Source of the DNA: Massilibacillus massiliensis
GTDB taxonomy: Bacteria > Bacillota > Negativicutes > FLKF01
DNA length: 64,000 nucleotides
Direction of reading: 5' to 3'
Assembly (NCBI RefSeq): GCF_900086705.1
Contig: NZ_LT575483.1
Span: 3,329,533 to 3,393,532, forward strand
This document shows positions 3,294-15,382 of the stretch, in pieces (positions within the stretch are counted from its first letter, which is position 1; each line of letters begins with the position of its first letter). A program made the position numbers and the translations under genes. The notes under the pieces are model-generated. The model saw only the letters and a program-made list of their open reading frames with translations, searched no databases and was not told the origin of the DNA.

Positions 3294-3410
3294 TCTGGTG
3301 ACGACAGCTATAAGGATCCACCTGTTCCCATACCGAACACAGTAGTTAAGCCTATAAACGCCGAAAGTACTTGGGTGGAAACGCCCTGGGAGGATAGGTA
3401 GTTGCCAGTT
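3294..3410 (+). rRNA. 5S ribosomal RNA, copy 1
   Basis: About 117 nt. It contains the conserved 5S core GGATCCACCTGTTCCCATAC and CCGAACACAGTAGTTAAGC. Helix I pairs CTGGTGAC (3295-3302) with GTTGCCAG (3401-3408). It lies in the normal place downstream of 23S. A second, different 5S gene follows after only about four bases. Confidence 0.95.
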
Positions 3411-3414
3411 TATA

Positions 3415-3531
3415 TCCAGTGATGATGCCTAAGTGGATCCACCTGTTCCCATACCGAACACAGTAGTTAAGCACTTAGAGGCCAAGGATACTTGGGTGGA
3501 AACGCCCTGGGAAAGTCGGTAATTGCTGGTT
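3415..3531 (+). rRNA. 5S ribosomal RNA, copy 2 (divergent tandem copy)
   Basis: A second complete 5S gene starting about 4 nt after the first. The loop B/C core is identical, but helix I (CCAGTGAT / ATTGCTGG) and the helix II strands (CTAAGTGG / CACTTAG) differ from copy 1 in a way that keeps pairing. No terminator or promoter fits between the copies, so both must come from one precursor. Confidence 0.92.
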
Positions 3532-6795: not shown

Positions 6796-6837
6796 AACCC
6801 GAGCAGAGAAATCTAGACTCAGATATCTGCTCGGGTT
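6796..6837. terminator. Bidirectional intrinsic terminator
   Basis: AACCCGAGCAGA pairs with TCTGCTCGGGTT. T-rich tails follow on both strands, so it serves both convergent genes. Confidence 0.9.
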
Positions 6838-6848
6838 CTTTATTGTAA

Positions 6849-7304
6849 TTATCGTGGTTTACGTGACAAGAGTTTAATGACTCTAGCACCCGTATTACGA
6901 ATACGTCGTAATGGTGCTACGCTGACTTTTATTTTTGGTTTCATATCTTTTACAGCACCGAAGTCGCCGCGTTTTAGATAGGTTGTTTTTGTTTTCTCTG
7001 GTTTTAAGATGGCTTTAATTGCTGCAACAGTTCTTTCTGGTCTGCTGCTTTCACTGCAGGTAAAGATATCTATTGCAGTGTAGCCCAAATCAGGATACGT
7101 ATGGATACTAATATGACCTTCATGGAGTAATACCAATGCGGTTAGTTGATCTCCCTCAAGGATTTGTATATTTGCATCTAATAATATCATATTTGATTCA
7201 GCAATGGCTTGTTTTATCGTTTCTTTCAATGCTTCAAGATTATTTAAGTTTTTAGATTTACATCCATACATATCGATTGTCAAGTGTCTAGCAAGGATCT
7301 TCAT
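6849..7304 (-). CDS. SpeD-like (AdoMet decarboxylase family) protein without the pyruvoyl serine
   Basis: A 151-aa protein of the class 1B S-adenosylmethionine decarboxylase family, which normally self-cleaves between Glu62 and Ser63 to make a pyruvoyl cofactor for spermidine synthesis. His68 (HTYPD) and Cys83 (FTCSE) are at the usual positions. Position 63 is Gly (LLHEGHIS; codon GGT) instead of Ser. GGT is one base from AGT. Without Ser or Thr the usual self-processing should fail, so the protein may be inactive as a decarboxylase or have another role. There is a basic C-terminal tail. No speE is adjacent. Start ATG 7304 has a G-rich SD (GGGGCG). Confidence 0.88.
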   Translation of the reverse strand: MKILARHLTIDMYGCKSKNLNNLEALKETIKQAIAESNMILLDANIQILEGDQLTALVLLHEGHISIHTYPDLGYTAIDIFTCSESSRPERTVAAIKAILKPEKTKTTYLKRGDFGAVKDMKPKIKVSVAPLRRIRNTGARVIKLLSRKPR

Positions 7305-7570
7305 TTCATATCGCCCCTTTTAAATTAAGTACTGATCTTGAGGCGTAACAATATTCCTCAAAAATAGATTAAGCTAACAATTAAAATATGAGTTCGGTAT
7401 AAATTTAGATAGTATCATACAATCTATTATTATAATTTGTTAAGCGACGAAAGTAAAGTAATTTATAGTGTATTCATTTTATTGAAAAAAGATGACTAGA
7501 ATGTAGTGAATATATCTAGTAATTTATGTTAAAATAAAAAGGATCTTAATTTGCAAAGGAGATTACATGC

Positions 7571-8509
7571 ATGAAAAATATAACGAATTTACTTCATATT
7601 AAATATCCGATTATTCAGGGTGGTATGGCATGGATATCGGAGGCCCATCTTGCCGCTGCTGTGTCCAACGCTGGTGGTGCCGGTATTATCTCAGCTGGTG
7701 GGCGTGAAGCCAGTTTTGTAAGAGAACAGATTCAATTAGCAAAAACTTTAACAGATAAGCCATTTGGGGTTAATGTACAATTGATGGCACCTAATAAAGA
7801 AGAAATCGTTGATGTAATTTGTGAAGAAAAAGTTGCCTTTACAACACTTGGCGCAGGCAATCCTATTCCGTTTTTTGAAAAATTAAAATCTGCAGGAATT
7901 AAAATTATTCCGGTTGTTCCGAATGTAAAACTTGCAAAACGCGTTGAAAGCGCTGGAGCAGATGCAATTATTGTTGAAGGTATGGAAGCCGGCGGACATA
8001 TAGGTGTAATAACAACAATGCCACTTATGACGCAGGTAATTCCGGAAGTGAATATTCCTGTTGTTGTTGCTGGGGGGATTGCAGACGGCCGTGGGCTTGC
8101 CGCAGCATTGCTTATGGGGGCTGCCGGTGTTCAAATGGGGACGCGTTTCTTAATTGCTGAAGAATGTAAAGTACATAAGAATGTAAAAGACAAACTGATT
8201 GAAGCGCTTGATACGGATTCTATTGTTACTGGACAGTCAATGGGTCATGGTGTTCGTGGCTTAAAGAATAAATTTTCTTTGAATTTTGTGGCATTAGAAA
8301 GAAAAGGAACGTCAGAGGAAGAATTGATGAAATTGGCTACTGGAACGAATCGTCTTTCTGCAATTGACGGTGATGTAGAAAATGGGATGGTGCTCGCCGG
8401 ACAAAGTTTATTACCATTGAAAGAGATTGAGCCGGCAAAAGTTATTATAGAAAGAATCATACGCGAAGCAAAAGAGGCTTTGGTAAGAGCGGAAAGCATA
8501 AAATTGTAA
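7571..8509 (+). CDS. fabK: Enoyl-[acyl-carrier-protein] reductase II (FMN)
   Basis: A 312-aa TIM-barrel flavoprotein that performs the last reduction in fatty-acid elongation and is typical of triclosan-resistant Firmicutes. It starts with the family pattern IKYPIIQGGMAW and has the flavin/active-site segment EGMEAGGHIG and the phosphate-binding VVAGGIADGRG and GVQMGTRF. Residue 145 in EAGGH is the expected catalytic His. SD AAAGGAG lies nine bases before ATG. It stands alone, followed by a terminator. The 266-base gap before it (7305-7570) should hold divergent promoters; I recognised no FapR or FabT box. Confidence 0.95.
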   Translation: MKNITNLLHIKYPIIQGGMAWISEAHLAAAVSNAGGAGIISAGGREASFVREQIQLAKTLTDKPFGVNVQLMAPNKEEIVDVICEEKVAFTTLGAGNPIPFFEKLKSAGIKIIPVVPNVKLAKRVESAGADAIIVEGMEAGGHIGVITTMPLMTQVIPEVNIPVVVAGGIADGRGLAAALLMGAAGVQMGTRFLIAEECKVHKNVKDKLIEALDTDSIVTGQSMGHGVRGLKNKFSLNFVALERKGTSEEELMKLATGTNRLSAIDGDVENGMVLAGQSLLPLKEIEPAKVIIERIIREAKEALVRAESIKL

Positions 8510-8719: not shown

Positions 8720-8764
8720 GTAAGCATACAGAATGTTCTGTTTAAGGGGTTGGTTCATATTATT

Positions 8765-10819
8765 ATGAATGCGAGAAGACAAGAATTATTGAAACTCTTA
8801 GAAACAAGTTTTTCTGGAGCTGCACTGACTGTTGAAAAAATAGCCCAAGTGCTTGGGGTAAGCAATAGAACGGTTCGCTATGATTTAGATGCCATTGGTG
8901 GAGAATTGCGAAAAAAAGGACAAGTACTTTGTAAAAAAGCGCAGAAGGGTATTTGGATAGAATCGATGTTTGAAAAGCAAGCAACAGAGCAAACTGCTTG
9001 TTGGTCTGAATATTACGAATATGTATTAAGCAAGGAGGAACGCTGTAATGCAATTATCGTGAATATTTTAAATGATGATACGTATATTTCTACAGAACAA
9101 CTTGCAGGGAAGCTATCGATCAGTAGAAGTACCTTGCTGACAGATTTAAAAAGTGTAAAAAAGCTGTTGGAGCAATACAAATTAAATCTTTGTACTAAAC
9201 GGGGTTTGGGTTTGTGGGTGGAAGGCACTGAAGAAGCGAGTCGTAATATATTAATTCACATTTTTTCCGGGTGTCTGCATGATTTTGGGGCTACGAAAGT
9301 CTGCAGTGATGACTCTTCTTACGAAATCATTTTATTTAGAGAATATGCTAAGGAATTGCCAGTTAAAGAAATTGCTAAATTTTTTATTGGGTTAGTCAAT
9401 GAATATAAATTACCTTGCTATGATTTTTCAATCAATCACATGGTATTGGCACTTATTGTGCAATTAAAAAGATTAAATATGAATAAAAAAATTTTGCAAT
9501 TGGAAAATCAACAATCCGATCATTATCAATGGGATTTGCTTGCACATCTATCAAAGAAAATGGTCGAAGCGTTTGCAAGCTACAATCAAAGCTTTCGTGA
9601 TCACTTGGAAGGCATGTTTATTACAAGAAAACTGCTGAGTAGTAAAATTTATATCTTTTCTGATGAAAAAAATATGACATTGGAACATCCTTCGGTAAAT
9701 TTATTAGCACTTAGTATTGCCAAAACTTTTGTAGAGCATTGTCAGGTATGGCTGGGTGATATTTATTTAGATGATGAAGAGTTGATGTATAATTTGGCAC
9801 TTCATTTGCAACCGGCGGTGGAAAGAGCTAAATATGGTATGGAGCTTATTAATCCTTTATTACCTCAGATAAGAGAACAATATGGTAACTTATTTATGAT
9901 TGCGTTGAGAGCCGTCGGAGAGATTGAGCAAAGTCTGGGGATTAAGATGTCAGATGATGAAATAGGCTATTTGACGATCCACTTAGGAGGTGCAATTGAA
10001 CGTAAAAAAATCCGTACATCGAAAAGCTTACAAGTATTGCTGGTTTGTGGCAATGGGGTTGGAACAGCTAATTTACTGGCGATTACATTGAAGAATAAAA
10101 TGTCGTATCTTAATATCAAAAAAATAATATCTGTTTACGAGATTAAAGAGGAAGAATTAGATGACATTGATATTGTGATTAGTACGATTGCACTTAAATT
10201 AGATCATGTAGCGGTTTTACATGTTTCTCCAATTTTATCTGATGCCGAAATTACGGTCATTGAAAATCAAATTCAATATTTTTATGATAAAAAATTTGCA
10301 AAAGTAGAAAAAGTAAATACCCCAAAAAATAGTACATTATCCTTAAAGGAGGTATTATTGCCGGAAACAATTGCACTTGATGTAGAGGCAGATAATTGGG
10401 AAGAGGCAATCAAATCGGCAGGTAATTTACTGGTGGATACAAAGGCAGTAGAGAAAAAATATGTTGATAGTATGATTCAATGTGTAAAAGACATGGGCGT
10501 TTATATTGTGATAGGACCAGGGCTGGCAATGCCGCATGCAAGATGTGAAGATGGTGTCAATAAAATATGCCTAAGTATGGTGCGTTTGGTTAATCCGGTG
10601 AAGTTTGGCAGTCCCGTCAATGACCCTGTTAATTTGGTATTTGCTTTTGGTGCAGTAGATTCTAAATCGCATTTAAGAGTGCTTTATGAATTGTGGCAGA
10701 TTTTCAATGATCCTGCAGCAATGGAAGTTTTACGTACATGCAAAAATAAAGTTGAGGTACTATCCTTAATTAAGAATTTTGAATCGAAGGAAGAGAATGC
10801 GGAGTTTAAATCTTTATAA
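8765..10819 (+). CDS. PRD-containing PTS-controlled transcriptional activator
   Basis: About 684 aa of the MtlR/LicR type. Numbered from a TTG at 8750: HTH domains at about 10-60 and 100-155, PRD1 (about 190-295, His230), PRD2 (about 300-420, His352 and His411), a IIB-like domain with Cys433 (LVCGNGVG), and a IIA domain with His596 (AMPHARCEDG). PTS phosphorylation of these residues would set its activity. It opens the operon with the IIA, IIB and IIC genes and deoC, so it is the likely local regulator. Its IIA domain resembles the separate IIA gene just downstream. The start is uncertain: AAGGGG (8744-8749) is poorly spaced for TTG 8750 and for ATG 8765. ATG gives the family-like N-terminus. 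Confidence 0.9.
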   Translation: MNARRQELLKLLETSFSGAALTVEKIAQVLGVSNRTVRYDLDAIGGELRKKGQVLCKKAQKGIWIESMFEKQATEQTACWSEYYEYVLSKEERCNAIIVNILNDDTYISTEQLAGKLSISRSTLLTDLKSVKKLLEQYKLNLCTKRGLGLWVEGTEEASRNILIHIFSGCLHDFGATKVCSDDSSYEIILFREYAKELPVKEIAKFFIGLVNEYKLPCYDFSINHMVLALIVQLKRLNMNKKILQLENQQSDHYQWDLLAHLSKKMVEAFASYNQSFRDHLEGMFITRKLLSSKIYIFSDEKNMTLEHPSVNLLALSIAKTFVEHCQVWLGDIYLDDEELMYNLALHLQPAVERAKYGMELINPLLPQIREQYGNLFMIALRAVGEIEQSLGIKMSDDEIGYLTIHLGGAIERKKIRTSKSLQVLLVCGNGVGTANLLAITLKNKMSYLNIKKIISVYEIKEEELDDIDIVISTIALKLDHVAVLHVSPILSDAEITVIENQIQYFYDKKFAKVEKVNTPKNSTLSLKEVLLPETIALDVEADNWEEAIKSAGNLLVDTKAVEKKYVDSMIQCVKDMGVYIVIGPGLAMPHARCEDGVNKICLSMVRLVNPVKFGSPVNDPVNLVFAFGAVDSKSHLRVLYELWQIFNDPAAMEVLRTCKNKVEVLSLIKNFESKEENAEFKSL

Positions 10820-10835
10820 AATGGGGTAATAAATC

Positions 10836-11285
10836 ATGTTAACTGATTTTTTAACAGCTGATTGTATTCGGTTAAATGTTATCTGTGAGAATTGGAAAGA
10901 AGCTGTAAAAGCTGGGACTGATCTGTTGCTAGAAAAAAATTGTATAGAGCCGAGTTATTTAGCGGCAATTATTCATCATCATGAAGCATTTGGACCCTAT
11001 ATGGTAGTTGCGCCGGGGATCGTTTTAGCACATGCCAGACCAGAAGATGGCGCGAAGAAAGTATCCATTAGTTTGGTAACATTAAAAACACCAATGGTGT
11101 TTGGTAATGAGATAAATGATCCAGTTAAATTAGTTTTTACGTTTGCAACAACAGATCAGAAAGTACATTTAGCTTTATTGGCAAATCTGATGGAACTATT
11201 ATCAAATGAAAATGATATTCAAACGATCATGTCTGCGCGTCAAGTTAGTTCAGTGATCGATATCATCAAGCAGTATTCCAATTGA
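10836..11285 (+). CDS. PTS IIA component (fructose/mannitol type)
   Basis: A 149-aa cytoplasmic phosphotransfer protein. Phospho-accepting His lies in VLAHARPEDG (about residue 66). It receives phosphate from HPr and passes it to the IIB protein encoded next. It is clearly paralogous to the C-terminal IIA domain of the preceding regulator (shared ALxV/RLNV...NW.EA, APGI/GPGL..HAR, NDPV.LVF blocks), suggesting duplication within the operon. It starts 17 bases after the regulator. Confidence 0.92.
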   Translation: MLTDFLTADCIRLNVICENWKEAVKAGTDLLLEKNCIEPSYLAAIIHHHEAFGPYMVVAPGIVLAHARPEDGAKKVSISLVTLKTPMVFGNEINDPVKLVFTFATTDQKVHLALLANLMELLSNENDIQTIMSARQVSSVIDIIKQYSN

Positions 11286-11312
11286 TTTATATAAAAAATA
11301 GGAGGAAGTATT

Positions 11313-11582
11313 ATGAAAATTTTAGTATGTTGTGGGCATGGTCTTGGCAGTAGCTTTATGATTGAAATGAACATTAAAAAAGTATTAACTGAGTTAGGCG
11401 TAGAGGCTACGGTGGAGCATAGTGATTTATCATCGGCATCGGGGATTAAAGCAGATATTTATGTTGGTACACGCGATATTGCAACGCAATTAACTTCATT
11501 AGGGGGAAAAGTAGTATCTTTAAACAATATGATTGATAAAAAAGAATTAAAAGAAAAAATGGAGGCTGCCTTGGTAGATTAA
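11313..11582 (+). CDS. PTS IIB component (ascorbate/lactose-like fold)
   Basis: An 89-aa small IIB domain. The phosphorylated Cys is in the N-terminal loop LVCCGHGLGSSF (Cys6 or Cys7). Size and loop fit UlaB/SgaB-type IIB proteins that partner UlaA-type IIC. SD AGGAGG precedes ATG. It lies between IIA and IIC in one operon. Confidence 0.92.
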   Translation: MKILVCCGHGLGSSFMIEMNIKKVLTELGVEATVEHSDLSSASGIKADIYVGTRDIATQLTSLGGKVVSLNNMIDKKELKEKMEAALVD

Positions 11583-11607
11583 AAAATGCAAGAGAGGATG
11601 AAGAAAA

Positions 11608-12882
11608 ATGTTAAAGTTTATACTTGATATTCTTAGTGTTCCAGCAATTTTAGTTGGTTTAATTTCGATGATTGGTCTCATTGCGTTAAAGAAAAATAGT
11701 GCAGATATTATTAAAGGAACAATTAAAACGATTTTAGGTTTCTTGATTCTTGGGGGCGGTGCTGGAATTGTCGTTGGTGCGTTATCCAATTTTGGGATAA
11801 TGTTTGAGCAAGGCTTTAATATTAATGGTGTCGTACCGCATAATGAAGCCATTGTTGCGATGGCGTTGAAAACTTATGGCACGCAAACTGCTTTAATTAT
11901 GGCCTTTGGTATGGTTGTAAATATTTTAATTGCGCGCTTTACTCCATTAAAGTACATTTTTTTAACAGGACATCATACTTTGTATATGGCTTGTATGATT
12001 GCATCTATCTTAGTTATTGGTGGCATGCAGGGAATTTCACTTATTATCGTTGGTTCAATGATTCTCGGATTTATTATGGCGTTATTTCCTGCAATTGCAC
12101 AACCGACGATGCGTAAGATTACGGGAACTGACGATGTAGCATTTGGTCATTTTAGTACAATTGGTTATGTATTTTCCGCTTGGATTGGTTCATTGGTAGG
12201 CAATAAAGAAAAAACGACAGAAGATATTAATTTCCCGCAGGGGTTAAGTTTTTTAAGAGATTCTTCGTTAGCCGTTTCCCTCGTCATGATGGTACTTTAT
12301 TTCATTGTTGCTATCGCATCCGGTCCTGCGTATGTAGAGAAAGAATTGAGTGGCGGTCAAAATTTTATTGTGTTTTCAATGATTCAGGCAATTACTTTTG
12401 CCGGTGGCGTGTATATCATTCTCGCAGGTGTTAGATTGGTACTTGCTGAAATTGTTCCAGCCTTTAGCGGAATTGCGACTAAGTTAGTGCCGGATGCAAA
12501 GCCAGCCATTGATTGTCCGGTTGTTTATCCTTATGCACCAAATGCAGTTTTAATTGGCTTCTTATCTAGTTTTGTCGGTGGTGTAGTGGGGATGATTGCC
12601 TTGCTTATGCTGGATAAATCTTTTCCCGGGTTGCCAATTATTTTACCCGGGGTAGTACCGCATTTCTTCTGCGGAGCAACTGCCGGAGTATTTGGTAATG
12701 CAACAGGTGGCTTAAGAGGTTCTATTGCTGGTGCTTTTGCACAAGGATTACTGATTACTTTCTTACCGGTCTTACTAATGCCAGTATTAGGCGATCTTGG
12801 TTTTGCAAATACGACCTTTAGTGATGCAGACTTTGGGGTCGTTGGTATTTTATTAGGGAATATACTACAATTATTTAAATAG
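11608..12882 (+). CDS. PTS IIC permease, UlaA/SgaT (ascorbate) family
   Basis: A 424-aa integral membrane permease with about ten or more hydrophobic segments. It matches the UlaA family at the start (SVPAILVGLISMIGLIALKK), at the conserved LTGHHTLYM segment, and in the proline/glycine-rich ILPGVVPHFFCG stretch. In E. coli this family carries L-ascorbate, but ulaG, ulaD, ulaE and ulaF are absent here and deoC follows, so the sugar may be different. The 124 bases between IIC and deoC hold no terminator, consistent with one transcript. Confidence 0.92.
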   Translation: MLKFILDILSVPAILVGLISMIGLIALKKNSADIIKGTIKTILGFLILGGGAGIVVGALSNFGIMFEQGFNINGVVPHNEAIVAMALKTYGTQTALIMAFGMVVNILIARFTPLKYIFLTGHHTLYMACMIASILVIGGMQGISLIIVGSMILGFIMALFPAIAQPTMRKITGTDDVAFGHFSTIGYVFSAWIGSLVGNKEKTTEDINFPQGLSFLRDSSLAVSLVMMVLYFIVAIASGPAYVEKELSGGQNFIVFSMIQAITFAGGVYIILAGVRLVLAEIVPAFSGIATKLVPDAKPAIDCPVVYPYAPNAVLIGFLSSFVGGVVGMIALLMLDKSFPGLPIILPGVVPHFFCGATAGVFGNATGGLRGSIAGAFAQGLLITFLPVLLMPVLGDLGFANTTFSDADFGVVGILLGNILQLFK

Positions 12883-13006
12883 AGTAATTGTATCAGTATA
12901 GCTCATTTGGCCATATTTTGTTTACCGGGTTGAAAGACAGGAAAAATTATTGTTGTTGAAGAACATACTTTATATAAAAATAAATAAGAAAAGGTGATTA
13001 GGTTAT

Positions 13007-13669
13007 ATGGAGTATGCAAAATTAATTGATCATACCTTATTAAAGACAGAAGCAACTGAAGCGGATATTGCTAAGCTTGTGGAAGAAGCCAGAAAATATG
13101 AATTTGCCTCTGTTTGTATCAGTCCTATTTGGGTAGCGTATGCAGCGAAAGCATTAAAAGATACAAGTGTAAATGTTTGTACAGTGATCGGGTTTCCTCA
13201 AGGTGCAACGCCGACGACTATTAAAGTTTTTGAAACGAAGACTGCAATTGAGGACGGGGCATCTGAGGTAGATATGGTCATTGCCGTAGGCAAATTAAAA
13301 AGCGGCGATTCTATGTATGTCAAGCAGGATATTGCAGCGGTGGTTAAAGAGTCAAGAGGCAAGGCGAAGGTAAAGGTCATCATCGAGGCTTGTTTGTTGA
13401 CCAACGAGGAAAAAGCGCTTGCTTGTCAGCTTGCCTTGGAGGCAGGTGCTGATTTCGTGAAAACTTCTACCGGTTTTTCAACAGGCGGTGCGGTGAAAGA
13501 TGATGTGCGTCTTATGCGTCGAGTGGTTGGTGATAAAATTGGTGTAAAAGCGGCCGGTGGTATTCGCTCAGAAGAGGATGTTAAACTTATGTTGGAGGCA
13601 GGAGCGAACCGTATTGGAACAAGCAATGGGGTAAATATCGTGCAGAAGAGTCTTGTAGCCGGAAAGTAA
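13007..13669 (+). CDS. deoC: Deoxyribose-phosphate aldolase
   Basis: A 220-aa class I aldolase that splits 2-deoxy-D-ribose 5-phosphate into glyceraldehyde 3-phosphate and acetaldehyde. It has the N-terminal IDHTLLK, the Schiff-base Lys in DFVKTSTGF, and the second active-site Lys in GVKAAGGIR. The family normally sits with nucleoside phosphorylase genes. Here it closes a PTS operon, which suggests that the imported and phosphorylated sugar is this enzyme's substrate or leads to it. A strong terminator follows. Confidence 0.96.
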
Positions 13670-13682
13670 AAATGATTTTTTG

Positions 13683-13737
13683 ACAGACGATACAAAAAGT
13701 TAGAATAGTAATTTTTTGTATCGTCTGTTTTATTTTT
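13683..13737 (+). terminator. Terminator of the PTS-deoC operon
   Basis: ACAGACGATACAAAAA pairs with TTTTTTGTATCGTCTGT over a 12-base loop, followed by a T-rich tail. Confidence 0.9.
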
Positions 13738-13765
13738 AGAAAACGAAAAAATAATGCGTTTCCCC

Positions 13766-13798
13766 TTGAATTTGGAAAAATAATAGTGTATTATACTA
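13766..13798 (+). promoter_or_regulatory. Promoter with overlapping dyad upstream of the metal-binding lipoprotein
   Basis: TTGAAT (13766-13771), a 17-base spacer and TATTAT (13789-13794). A near-perfect 15-base dyad TAGTGTATTATACTA (13784-13798) covers the -10. This could be a Fur-family (Zur/PerR-like) site, but the assignment is a guess. Confidence 0.5.
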
Positions 13799-13854
13799 AA
13801 TAGTAATGTTATTAATTAAGATATTACGTATTTGAAAACTTGGGGGAAGATAAA

Positions 13855-14763
13855 ATGCGATTGAGATGGATTCAAATTATGGCCGCAATTATGGTCAGTG
13901 CGTTGGTTTTGGTTGGATGTGGGATGAATAATACAAGTGAAAAAACAAGTAAGGATAAACAAAAATTCAACATTGTTACATCTTTTTATCCGATGTACAT
14001 AGCAACAATCAATGTAACAAAAGGTGTGGAAGGGGTCGAAGTCAAGAATATGACGAAACCTCAAACTGGGTGTTTACATGATTATCAATTAACACCGGAA
14101 GATTTAAAGACATTAGAGAATGCAAATGCTTTTGTTGTAAATGGTGCAGGGATGGAAGCATTTTTAGATAAAGTAGTTAAACAGCAAGCCGATTTAAAAA
14201 TTGTTGATGCAAGTAAAGGCATTACTCTTTTAAAAGAAGGCGATGAGGAGAATCCACATGTGTGGGTTAGTGTGAGCGATGCAATTCAACAAGTGAATCA
14301 GATTGCAGATCAGTTAGCAGCAATTGATCAGGTACATGCGGCGCAGTATAAACAAAATGCCGCGGAATATGTTAAAAAATTAGAAGCATTAAAAACGCAG
14401 ATGCATAAACAAATTGATTCGCTGCCAAATAAGAATATCGTTACATTCCATGAGGCTTTCCCTTATTTCGCTAAAGAATTTAATTTAAATATTGTGTCTG
14501 TTATCGAGCGTGAACCGGGAACGGAGCCTTCGCCAAAAGAATTGGAAGAAACGATTGCAAAGATCAAAGAGTTAAATATAAAAGCTCTGTTTGCTGAACC
14601 ACAATATCCGGCTGGTGCAGCTGAAACAATCTCAAAAGAAACGGGTGCAAAGGTCTATACATTAGATCCAGTGGTAACGGGAGAAGCAACACCGGATTCT
14701 TATGATGCTTATATCCAAACGATGAAGAAAAATGCGGAAGTTTTAGAAACCGCCTTAAAATAA
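13855..14763 (+). CDS. Zinc/manganese ABC transporter substrate-binding lipoprotein
   Basis: A 302-aa cluster A-I (ZnuA/TroA-like) protein. The signal peptide ends in a lipobox (LVLVGCG), so it is membrane-anchored outside the cell. Metal ligands expected for the family are seen: His in GCLHDYQLTPED, His in NPHVWVS, His in TFHEAFPYF and Asp in TLDPVVTG. The His-rich loop of many ZnuA proteins is absent. ATG 13855 is preferred because GGGGGAAG lies just upstream; a TTG at 13840 would put the SD inside the gene. No permease or ATPase gene is adjacent, so its transporter partner lies elsewhere. Confidence 0.92.
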   Translation: MRLRWIQIMAAIMVSALVLVGCGMNNTSEKTSKDKQKFNIVTSFYPMYIATINVTKGVEGVEVKNMTKPQTGCLHDYQLTPEDLKTLENANAFVVNGAGMEAFLDKVVKQQADLKIVDASKGITLLKEGDEENPHVWVSVSDAIQQVNQIADQLAAIDQVHAAQYKQNAAEYVKKLEALKTQMHKQIDSLPNKNIVTFHEAFPYFAKEFNLNIVSVIEREPGTEPSPKELEETIAKIKELNIKALFAEPQYPAGAAETISKETGAKVYTLDPVVTGEATPDSYDAYIQTMKKNAEVLETALK

Positions 14764-14915: not shown

Positions 14916-14935
14916 TCATTTAGTAGGTGGTAGAA

Positions 14936-15382
14936 TTGAGTAATATAGCGGATTTAATAGAAGAATATATTCTACGGCGGTTATCGAGAGAGCAAGATAG
15001 TAAAGTAGAATTACGAAGGACTGAAATTGCAGATGAAATAGACTGTGCCCCTTCGCAGATCAGCTATGTATTGAATACAAGATTTACGATAGCAAAAGGA
15101 TTCACGGTTGAATCCAGACGAGGTCTAGGGGGATTTATTCGTATCACCCGAGTGCCGTTGCAAAATATAATATATCAAGATATATTGAATAAAATAAATG
15201 AAGAGACTTCGCTAGAAGATATCAAAGTGATTGTTAGATATTTGGTACAGCATGGTTTTATTGCAAATCGTGAGGCTGCGATATTGTTTCAAGTTGTACC
15301 TTTTATTTTTGCAAAAATGGAGGAAAAAGAAAGAATCGATTTTCTGCATACTATTTTTTTGACTTTGGCCAATTTTTCTTAA
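14936..15382 (+). CDS. ctsR: CtsR, class III heat-shock repressor
   Basis: A 148-aa winged-helix repressor of clp genes. The N-terminus SNIADLIEEYI, the DNA-contact region PSQISYVLNTRFT and the Gly-rich wing RRGLGGFIRI are typical; the wing acts as the heat sensor. I start at TTG 14936 because AGGTGG lies five bases upstream and the product then aligns with known CtsR N-termini. An upstream GTG (14927) is the alternative. It is the first gene of ctsR-mcsA-mcsB-clpC, preceded by CtsR-like repeats in its own promoter. Confidence 0.95.
   Translation: MSNIADLIEEYILRRLSREQDSKVELRRTEIADEIDCAPSQISYVLNTRFTIAKGFTVESRRGLGGFIRITRVPLQNIIYQDILNKINEETSLEDIKVIVRYLVQHGFIANREAAILFQVVPFIFAKMEEKERIDFLHTIFLTLANFS

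Follow-up and report, generated by a model that had tools for sequence, protein, structure and literature searches.

A conserved SpeD-fold protein of the Negativicutes with a basic C-terminal tail and, in two thirds of aligned orthologues, no pyruvoyl-forming serine

Introduction

In the class 1B S-adenosylmethionine decarboxylases (AdoMetDC, SpeD) the pyruvoyl group comes from Ser63. In the window studied here, the whole stretch of 64,000 nucleotides from Massilibacillus massiliensis that was analysed, a gene of this family has a glycine codon at that position, which raises the question of what the protein is kept for. A paper on SpeD neofunctionalisation (PMC10407285) mentions neither the Negativicutes nor glycine, and in the open-access literature AdoMetDC and the Negativicutes occur together only in a paper on OmpM, where the enzyme appears in the title of a reference (PMC10628300).

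Results and discussion

The gene and its cleavage site are described by the following features.

6849..7304, minus strand: coding sequence of the tailed SpeD-family protein, 151 amino acids, stop codon included in the coordinates (profile matches and orthologue census)
7116..7118, minus strand: codon 63, GGT (Gly), at the position of the pyruvoyl-forming Ser63 (phmmer against 1TLU and orthologue alignment)
7101..7103, minus strand: codon 68, His, the equivalent of the processing and catalytic His68, kept (phmmer against 1TLU and alignment)
7056..7058, minus strand: codon 83, Cys, the equivalent of the catalytic Cys83, present here and absent in several relatives
6796..6837, no strand: terminator-like perfect inverted repeat, common to the convergent carbonic anhydrase gene (read by eye)

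The reading frame (7304-6849, minus strand) opens with ATG, contains no internal stops and is intact. Its product scored 99.5 bits against Pfam PF02675 and 105.6 bits against NCBIfam TIGR03330, an equivalog model for AdoMetDC with a cut-off of 75.65 bits, and would therefore be misnamed an AdoMet decarboxylase. Alignment with Thermotoga maritima SpeD (1TLU) by phmmer was ungapped over residues 1-117. The sequence and fold similarity expected of a class 1B SpeD is present, as are His68 and Cys83, both of which are missing in some orthologues, but the serine is not: the cleavage site reads HEGH, with GGT at 7118-7116. The initial annotation had described the site in just these terms, and its conclusion stands: with Gly in place of Ser63, no classic pyruvoyl enzyme can be made. 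As the protein has no pyruvoyl capacity, it is not a SpeD-type decarboxylase. The terminator that had also been proposed was borne out in part; the 12-bp repeat is perfect (arms 6796-6807 and 6826-6837), but its loop of 18 nt exceeds what the terminator scan accepts.

An AlphaFold2 (AF2) model built from seven sequences gave a confident SpeD core (pLDDT about 90) and a low-confidence tail (below 50 over residues 116-139) with a helix at 138-147. The best PDB matches found by Foldseek were 1VR7, 1TLU and 1TMI, all T. maritima SpeD, the last being the S63A non-processing mutant. Spermine synthase (3C6K) was also among the fold matches.

A glycine codon is one base from a serine codon (AGT to GGT), and the initial annotation had itself allowed for a sequencing error or a strain-specific null. 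The nearest relative, an independent Massilibacillus assembly with an 89% identical protein, also has HEGH, and an alignment of homologues showed Gly63 to be fixed in orthologues that are 89%, 70% and 66% identical and in the entire surrounding clade, so the residue is neither chance nor error. Frames are intact, and pairwise dN/dS, where it could be measured, is 0.05-0.24 over the whole gene, with dS saturated in some pairs. The earlier view that the gene is not decaying thus agrees with the purifying selection seen here. An error, a null or a decaying gene was rejected as an explanation, its probability being practically negligible.

Of 300 Negativicutes genomes, 284 have an orthologue, as do 223 of the 227 good assemblies and 56 of the 60 relatives; more than one copy is rare. 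An alignment was made of 85 orthologues, drawn from about 30 family-level groups. Ser63 is kept in 28 (residues 62-64 being ESH in 25, and QSH or KSH in three), and the other 57 have Gly (50), Cys (2), Ala (2), Thr (1), His (1) or Phe (1). In a tree with 11 tailless SpeDs, all ESH, as the outgroup, the tailed proteins formed a single clade (SH-aLRT 98). The window protein belongs to a group of 36, comprising Massilibacillus, Propionispira, Megamonas and group f11, that is uniformly without the serine (support 100). The ancestral residue was likely serine, since all the outgroup sequences and the basal rows carry it. By parsimony Ser63 changed at least seven times, two of these changes being forced by strongly supported branches; the exact number of losses is uncertain because the tree rests on a short alignment of 149 columns and leaves many forks open. 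On this phylogeny the serine was lost several times within the family. The initial annotation was right about the residue but had missed that the state is class-wide, in a distinct orthologous family, and reached repeatedly.

This census bears on the idea that the protein is a neofunctionalised pyruvoyl decarboxylase of the SpeDA (arginine) or SpeDC (ornithine) type. Such a change is a common fate of extra bacterial SpeD copies (PMC10407285) and could apply to the serine-bearing minority. Both types, however, need the serine-derived pyruvoyl group, and the window protein has no Ser63, nor do 57 of the 85 orthologues. This function was rejected for the window protein because of Gly63, and is very improbable as an account of the family.

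What distinguishes the family lies beyond the core, and was not picked up by the initial annotation.

6852..6968, minus strand: Negativicutes-specific basic C-terminal tail, codons 113-151, GDFGAVKDMKPKIKVSVAPLRRIRNTGARVIKLLSRKPR (orthologue alignment, conservation and tail-profile search)
6858..6914, minus strand: predicted amphipathic basic helix in the tail, codons 131-149 (hydrophobic moment 0.78, equalled or exceeded in 0.5% of shuffles; AF2 helix 138-147 at low confidence)

The family is defined here as a SpeD core followed by a KRGDFG..DMKPK...PLRR tail, and the window protein belongs to it. The tail, of about 38 residues, has the consensus (K)RGDFGS..DMKPKIKVS.APLRRVRNTGAKV...LSR, which may also be given as KRGDFG..DMKPK.K...PLRR.RNTGA.V, and it is recognisable in all 85 aligned orthologues, one of them cut by a contig end. 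The SpeDs of the other Bacillota searched have no tail and end near the end of the T. maritima enzyme, most matches to the family model stopping near position 113-126. A profile of the tail alone found it in 10 of 10 genomes of the class, with only two chance-level matches in 289 other genomes of the phylum, and neither the rest of the window's genome nor the PDB gave a convincing homologue of the tail. A phage origin was considered and rejected: among the matches listed, phage SpeDs were less than 40% identical and mostly matched the core only.

The tail is conserved better than the active site. The tail exceeds the core in mean column conservation (0.69 and 0.50), with a wider gap among members without the serine (0.70 and 0.45); tail dN/dS is mostly 0.02-0.06, rising to 0.13-0.26 in three pairs, with some dS saturated. 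In six examples the tail had 14-25 Lys or Arg residues against 3-4 Asp or Glu. In all 14 sequences tested, an 18-residue stretch near its end was basic and strongly amphipathic and was matched by 0.2-3.6% of shuffles, fractions that are somewhat favourable because the best stretch was picked in each sequence.

The core has fared differently. Members without the serine have diverged at positions 49, 51, 53, 72, 82 and 84, which lie close to the active site of SpeD. These divergences follow the loss of the serine and count against a further possibility, that the protein is still an enzyme, with a pyruvoyl-independent chemistry in a pocket formed by Glu62, His64, His68 and Cys83. The residues themselves are mostly there, with H64 in 54, H68 in 52 and C83 in 47 of the 57 members without the serine, but C83 or H68 is gone in lineages that keep the tail (f4, f8, f15, f21 and f25). 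Such an enzyme seems unlikely.

The genome of the window also encodes a class 1A SpeD with a normal DKSH site, the second, intact SpeD that the initial annotation had thought worth looking for, and a spermidine synthase. It might therefore be supposed that the tailed protein resembles a prozyme, a dead SpeD that associates with the cell's own class 1A SpeD and activates it. Dead SpeD paralogues have been reported in trypanosomatids (PMC5201418, PMC3686867), and the activation of AdoMetDC by one of them is a precedent (PMC5201418). The window genome offers such a partner, but not every genome of the family does. Of 60 relatives, 50 have a class 1A SpeD; the tailed protein is present in 47 of these and in 9 of the other 10. 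Nine genomes (G010, G030, G040, G047, G057, G062, G067, G072 and G085) have no SpeD-family protein besides the tailed one, and in all five of these that were aligned (G010, G030, G040, G047 and G057) the tailed protein lacks the serine; G047 and G057 also have no SpeE. Class 1A SpeD from E. coli, moreover, is active without a partner. The suggestion in the initial annotation of a partner subunit is weakened accordingly, and a prozyme-like role is unlikely. With the tailed protein as the sole SpeD of nine genomes, and without the serine in the five inspected, its presence cannot be put down to AdoMet decarboxylation or to the activation of a SpeD partner. Judged by gene content, the family is kept independently of both.

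The polyamine clusters of some of these genomes contain genes of the carboxynorspermidine route, in which decarboxylated AdoMet is not used: a carboxynorspermidine synthase-like gene in G010 and G040, below the NCBIfam cut-off, and the decarboxylase gene nspC in G010 and G030, above it. A search of the SpeD-less genomes for eukaryote-type SpeD (PF01536) gave no match, and neither did the positive control.

Other arrangements of SpeD and SpeE genes were noted. Orphan SpeE genes occur at L218, L219, L220 and L221 (genomes G010, G030, G040 and G014), where no serine-bearing SpeD was found; they pass the spermidine synthase cut-off (shown for G010 and G040) and lie in clusters with an Orn/Lys/Arg decarboxylase, in some cases an agmatinase, and carboxynorspermidine synthase-like and decarboxylase genes. 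A shorter class 1B SpeD accompanies the tailed protein in L179 (G053) and L180 (G002), so that G053, which also has a class 1A SpeD, encodes three SpeD-family proteins. In an Omnitrophota sequence (L038:6001-7074) a SpeD with an ESH site is fused in frame to an apparent spermidine synthase domain.

The neighbourhood of the gene is conserved. In 24 of 34 group labels it lies a few kilobases from ctsR-mcsA-mcsB-clpC, in divergent orientation, and the interval is often occupied by a nitronate monooxygenase-like gene and one of flavodiiron type. A rubrerythrin gene comes next in 11, and many loci have an rRNA operon on the convergent side. This is read as synteny and not as a functional operon, because in most loci the gene seems to form a transcription unit of its own. 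Control by CtsR was considered and set aside: 15 loci gave weak box matches only (3-4 mismatches), taken as chance. In the window the ctsR-mcsA-mcsB-clpC synteny is seen at 14927-15382 and 7571-8509, and PTS-like, deoC-like and metal-binding lipoprotein-like genes (8750-14763, named by eye) separate the gene from ctsR. Two tandem 5S rRNA genes (3294-3410 and 3415-3531, plus strand) follow a 23S rRNA gene.

Two features lie upstream of the gene.

7429..7457, minus strand: promoter-like site TTTACT-17-TATAAT, the counterpart of a promoter recurring across families; not above chance in the window alone
7302..7428, minus strand: 5' leader, starting just after the -10 box and reaching the start codon; retains the TTGAGG/CCTCAA hairpin and the GGGGCGAT ribosome-binding site of the longer leader of serine-bearing relatives

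The median leader length is 145 nt in serine-bearing members, with the recurrent promoter, against 45.5 nt in those without the serine (Mann-Whitney p 3.6e-8, kinship ignored). The link is not strict, since members at the base of the window clade and some in f5 and f9 have lost the serine and have leaders of intermediate or full length. Common blocks are GGCGTAATAC, TTGAGG...ACGCCTC and GGGGCGAT, between which alternative pairing is possible. RNAalifold recovered a GGCGT/ACGCC helix; GGCGTA/TACGCC can form in 85% of cells, with covariation not clearly above shuffles, and the leader had no Rfam match. Conserved examples are L062:1364-1518, L070:1712-1865 and L103:1506-1659 (all minus strand), with possible alternative pairings near the ribosome-binding site. 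As a lead only, the loss of catalysis may have gone along with simpler regulation.

Proposed role and its alternatives

It is very likely that this is a conserved family whose function needs no pyruvoyl group. The reading preferred here, with a probability of about 0.55, goes further: a SpeD-fold protein derived from class 1B SpeD would have been repurposed, without the pyruvoyl group, as a ligand-binding scaffold anchored by its tail to the membrane or to RNA. In the ancestor of the class or earlier, a SpeD copy would have acquired the basic, amphipathic tail. Class 1A SpeD, present in most genomes, could supply AdoMet decarboxylation, so the tailed copy would not be needed for that. The self-cleaving serine would then have been lost several times, with fold and tail held by purifying selection, and the protein most likely works as a non-enzymatic scaffold. 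The core is probably a dimer, as in related proteins, and may have kept the capacity to bind a small cationic or adenosyl ligand; through its tail the protein would attach to an anionic partner, either the inner membrane or RNA. Of the roles suggested in the initial annotation, that of a binding protein is still the most favoured kind of explanation.

Orthology, tail, serine loss, purifying selection, fold and independence from other SpeD and SpeE genes were obtained by computation. From these we infer the dimerisation, the ligand binding and the binding partner of the tail. The argument is strong on the family's existence and independence and weak on the mechanism. The conservation of His64 and, mostly, of His68 in members without the serine counts against a pure scaffold, which has no obvious need of them. 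Serine-bearing members could still be active enzymes, so a single function for the whole family is not required.

A more specific but unlikely possibility is a polyamine-dependent envelope factor, in which the SpeD fold of this Negativicutes core protein would bind cadaverine or putrescine while the tail sits at the inner membrane, the protein sensing or handling diamines, independently of pyruvoyl, and aiding diamine modification of the peptidoglycan. This modification is known in Selenomonas and Veillonella, and the family's spread equals that of the diderm, diamine-modified class (PMC10628300). The tail is amphipathic and basic, and a dead SpeD-fold protein is able to bind putrescine (PMC3686867). 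Class-wide spread alone, however, is a weak clue, and no envelope gene was found in the neighbourhood of the loci examined.

The name matters as well as the role. All 25 tailed proteins tested match TIGR03330, yet two thirds of the aligned orthologues are unable to make the cofactor; misnaming them would mislead polyamine-pathway reconstruction across the Negativicutes. The family also offers a natural series, from serine-bearing members with full catalytic residues to members with no serine and eroded sites, the new tail remaining constant, which would show an enzyme turning into a non-enzyme. An uncharacterised core gene of the diderm Firmicutes is thereby marked and open to knockout study.

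Comparison with known systems

Among the closest known systems is T. maritima class 1B SpeD (1TLU, 1TMI, 3IWB), which shares the fold, the core length, His68, Cys83 and the E-x-H around the cleavage site. The tailed protein differs in having no Ser63 or pyruvoyl group, in its diverged residues 49, 51, 53 and 84 and in its basic tail of about 38 residues. The AdoMetDC prozyme of trypanosomatids and the ADL of Leishmania are likewise SpeD-fold paralogues without the cleaved serine, and, like the tailed protein in many genomes, stand beside an active AdoMetDC; they are eukaryotic class 2 proteins, however, and act with an AdoMetDC partner, whereas the tailed protein is class 1B, bacterial and kept without a partner SpeD. 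SpeDA and SpeDC are also extra SpeD copies that have departed from AdoMet decarboxylation, but they retain the serine and the pyruvoyl chemistry that the tailed family discards. The cofactor-free use of the SpeD fold is known from degraded domains (PMC10407285), namely those in the SpeD-SpeD fusion of Victivallis, the C-terminal half of eukaryotic class 2 AdoMetDC and the N-terminal domain of human spermine synthase. These are parts of larger enzymes, whereas the tailed protein is a free-standing core protein.
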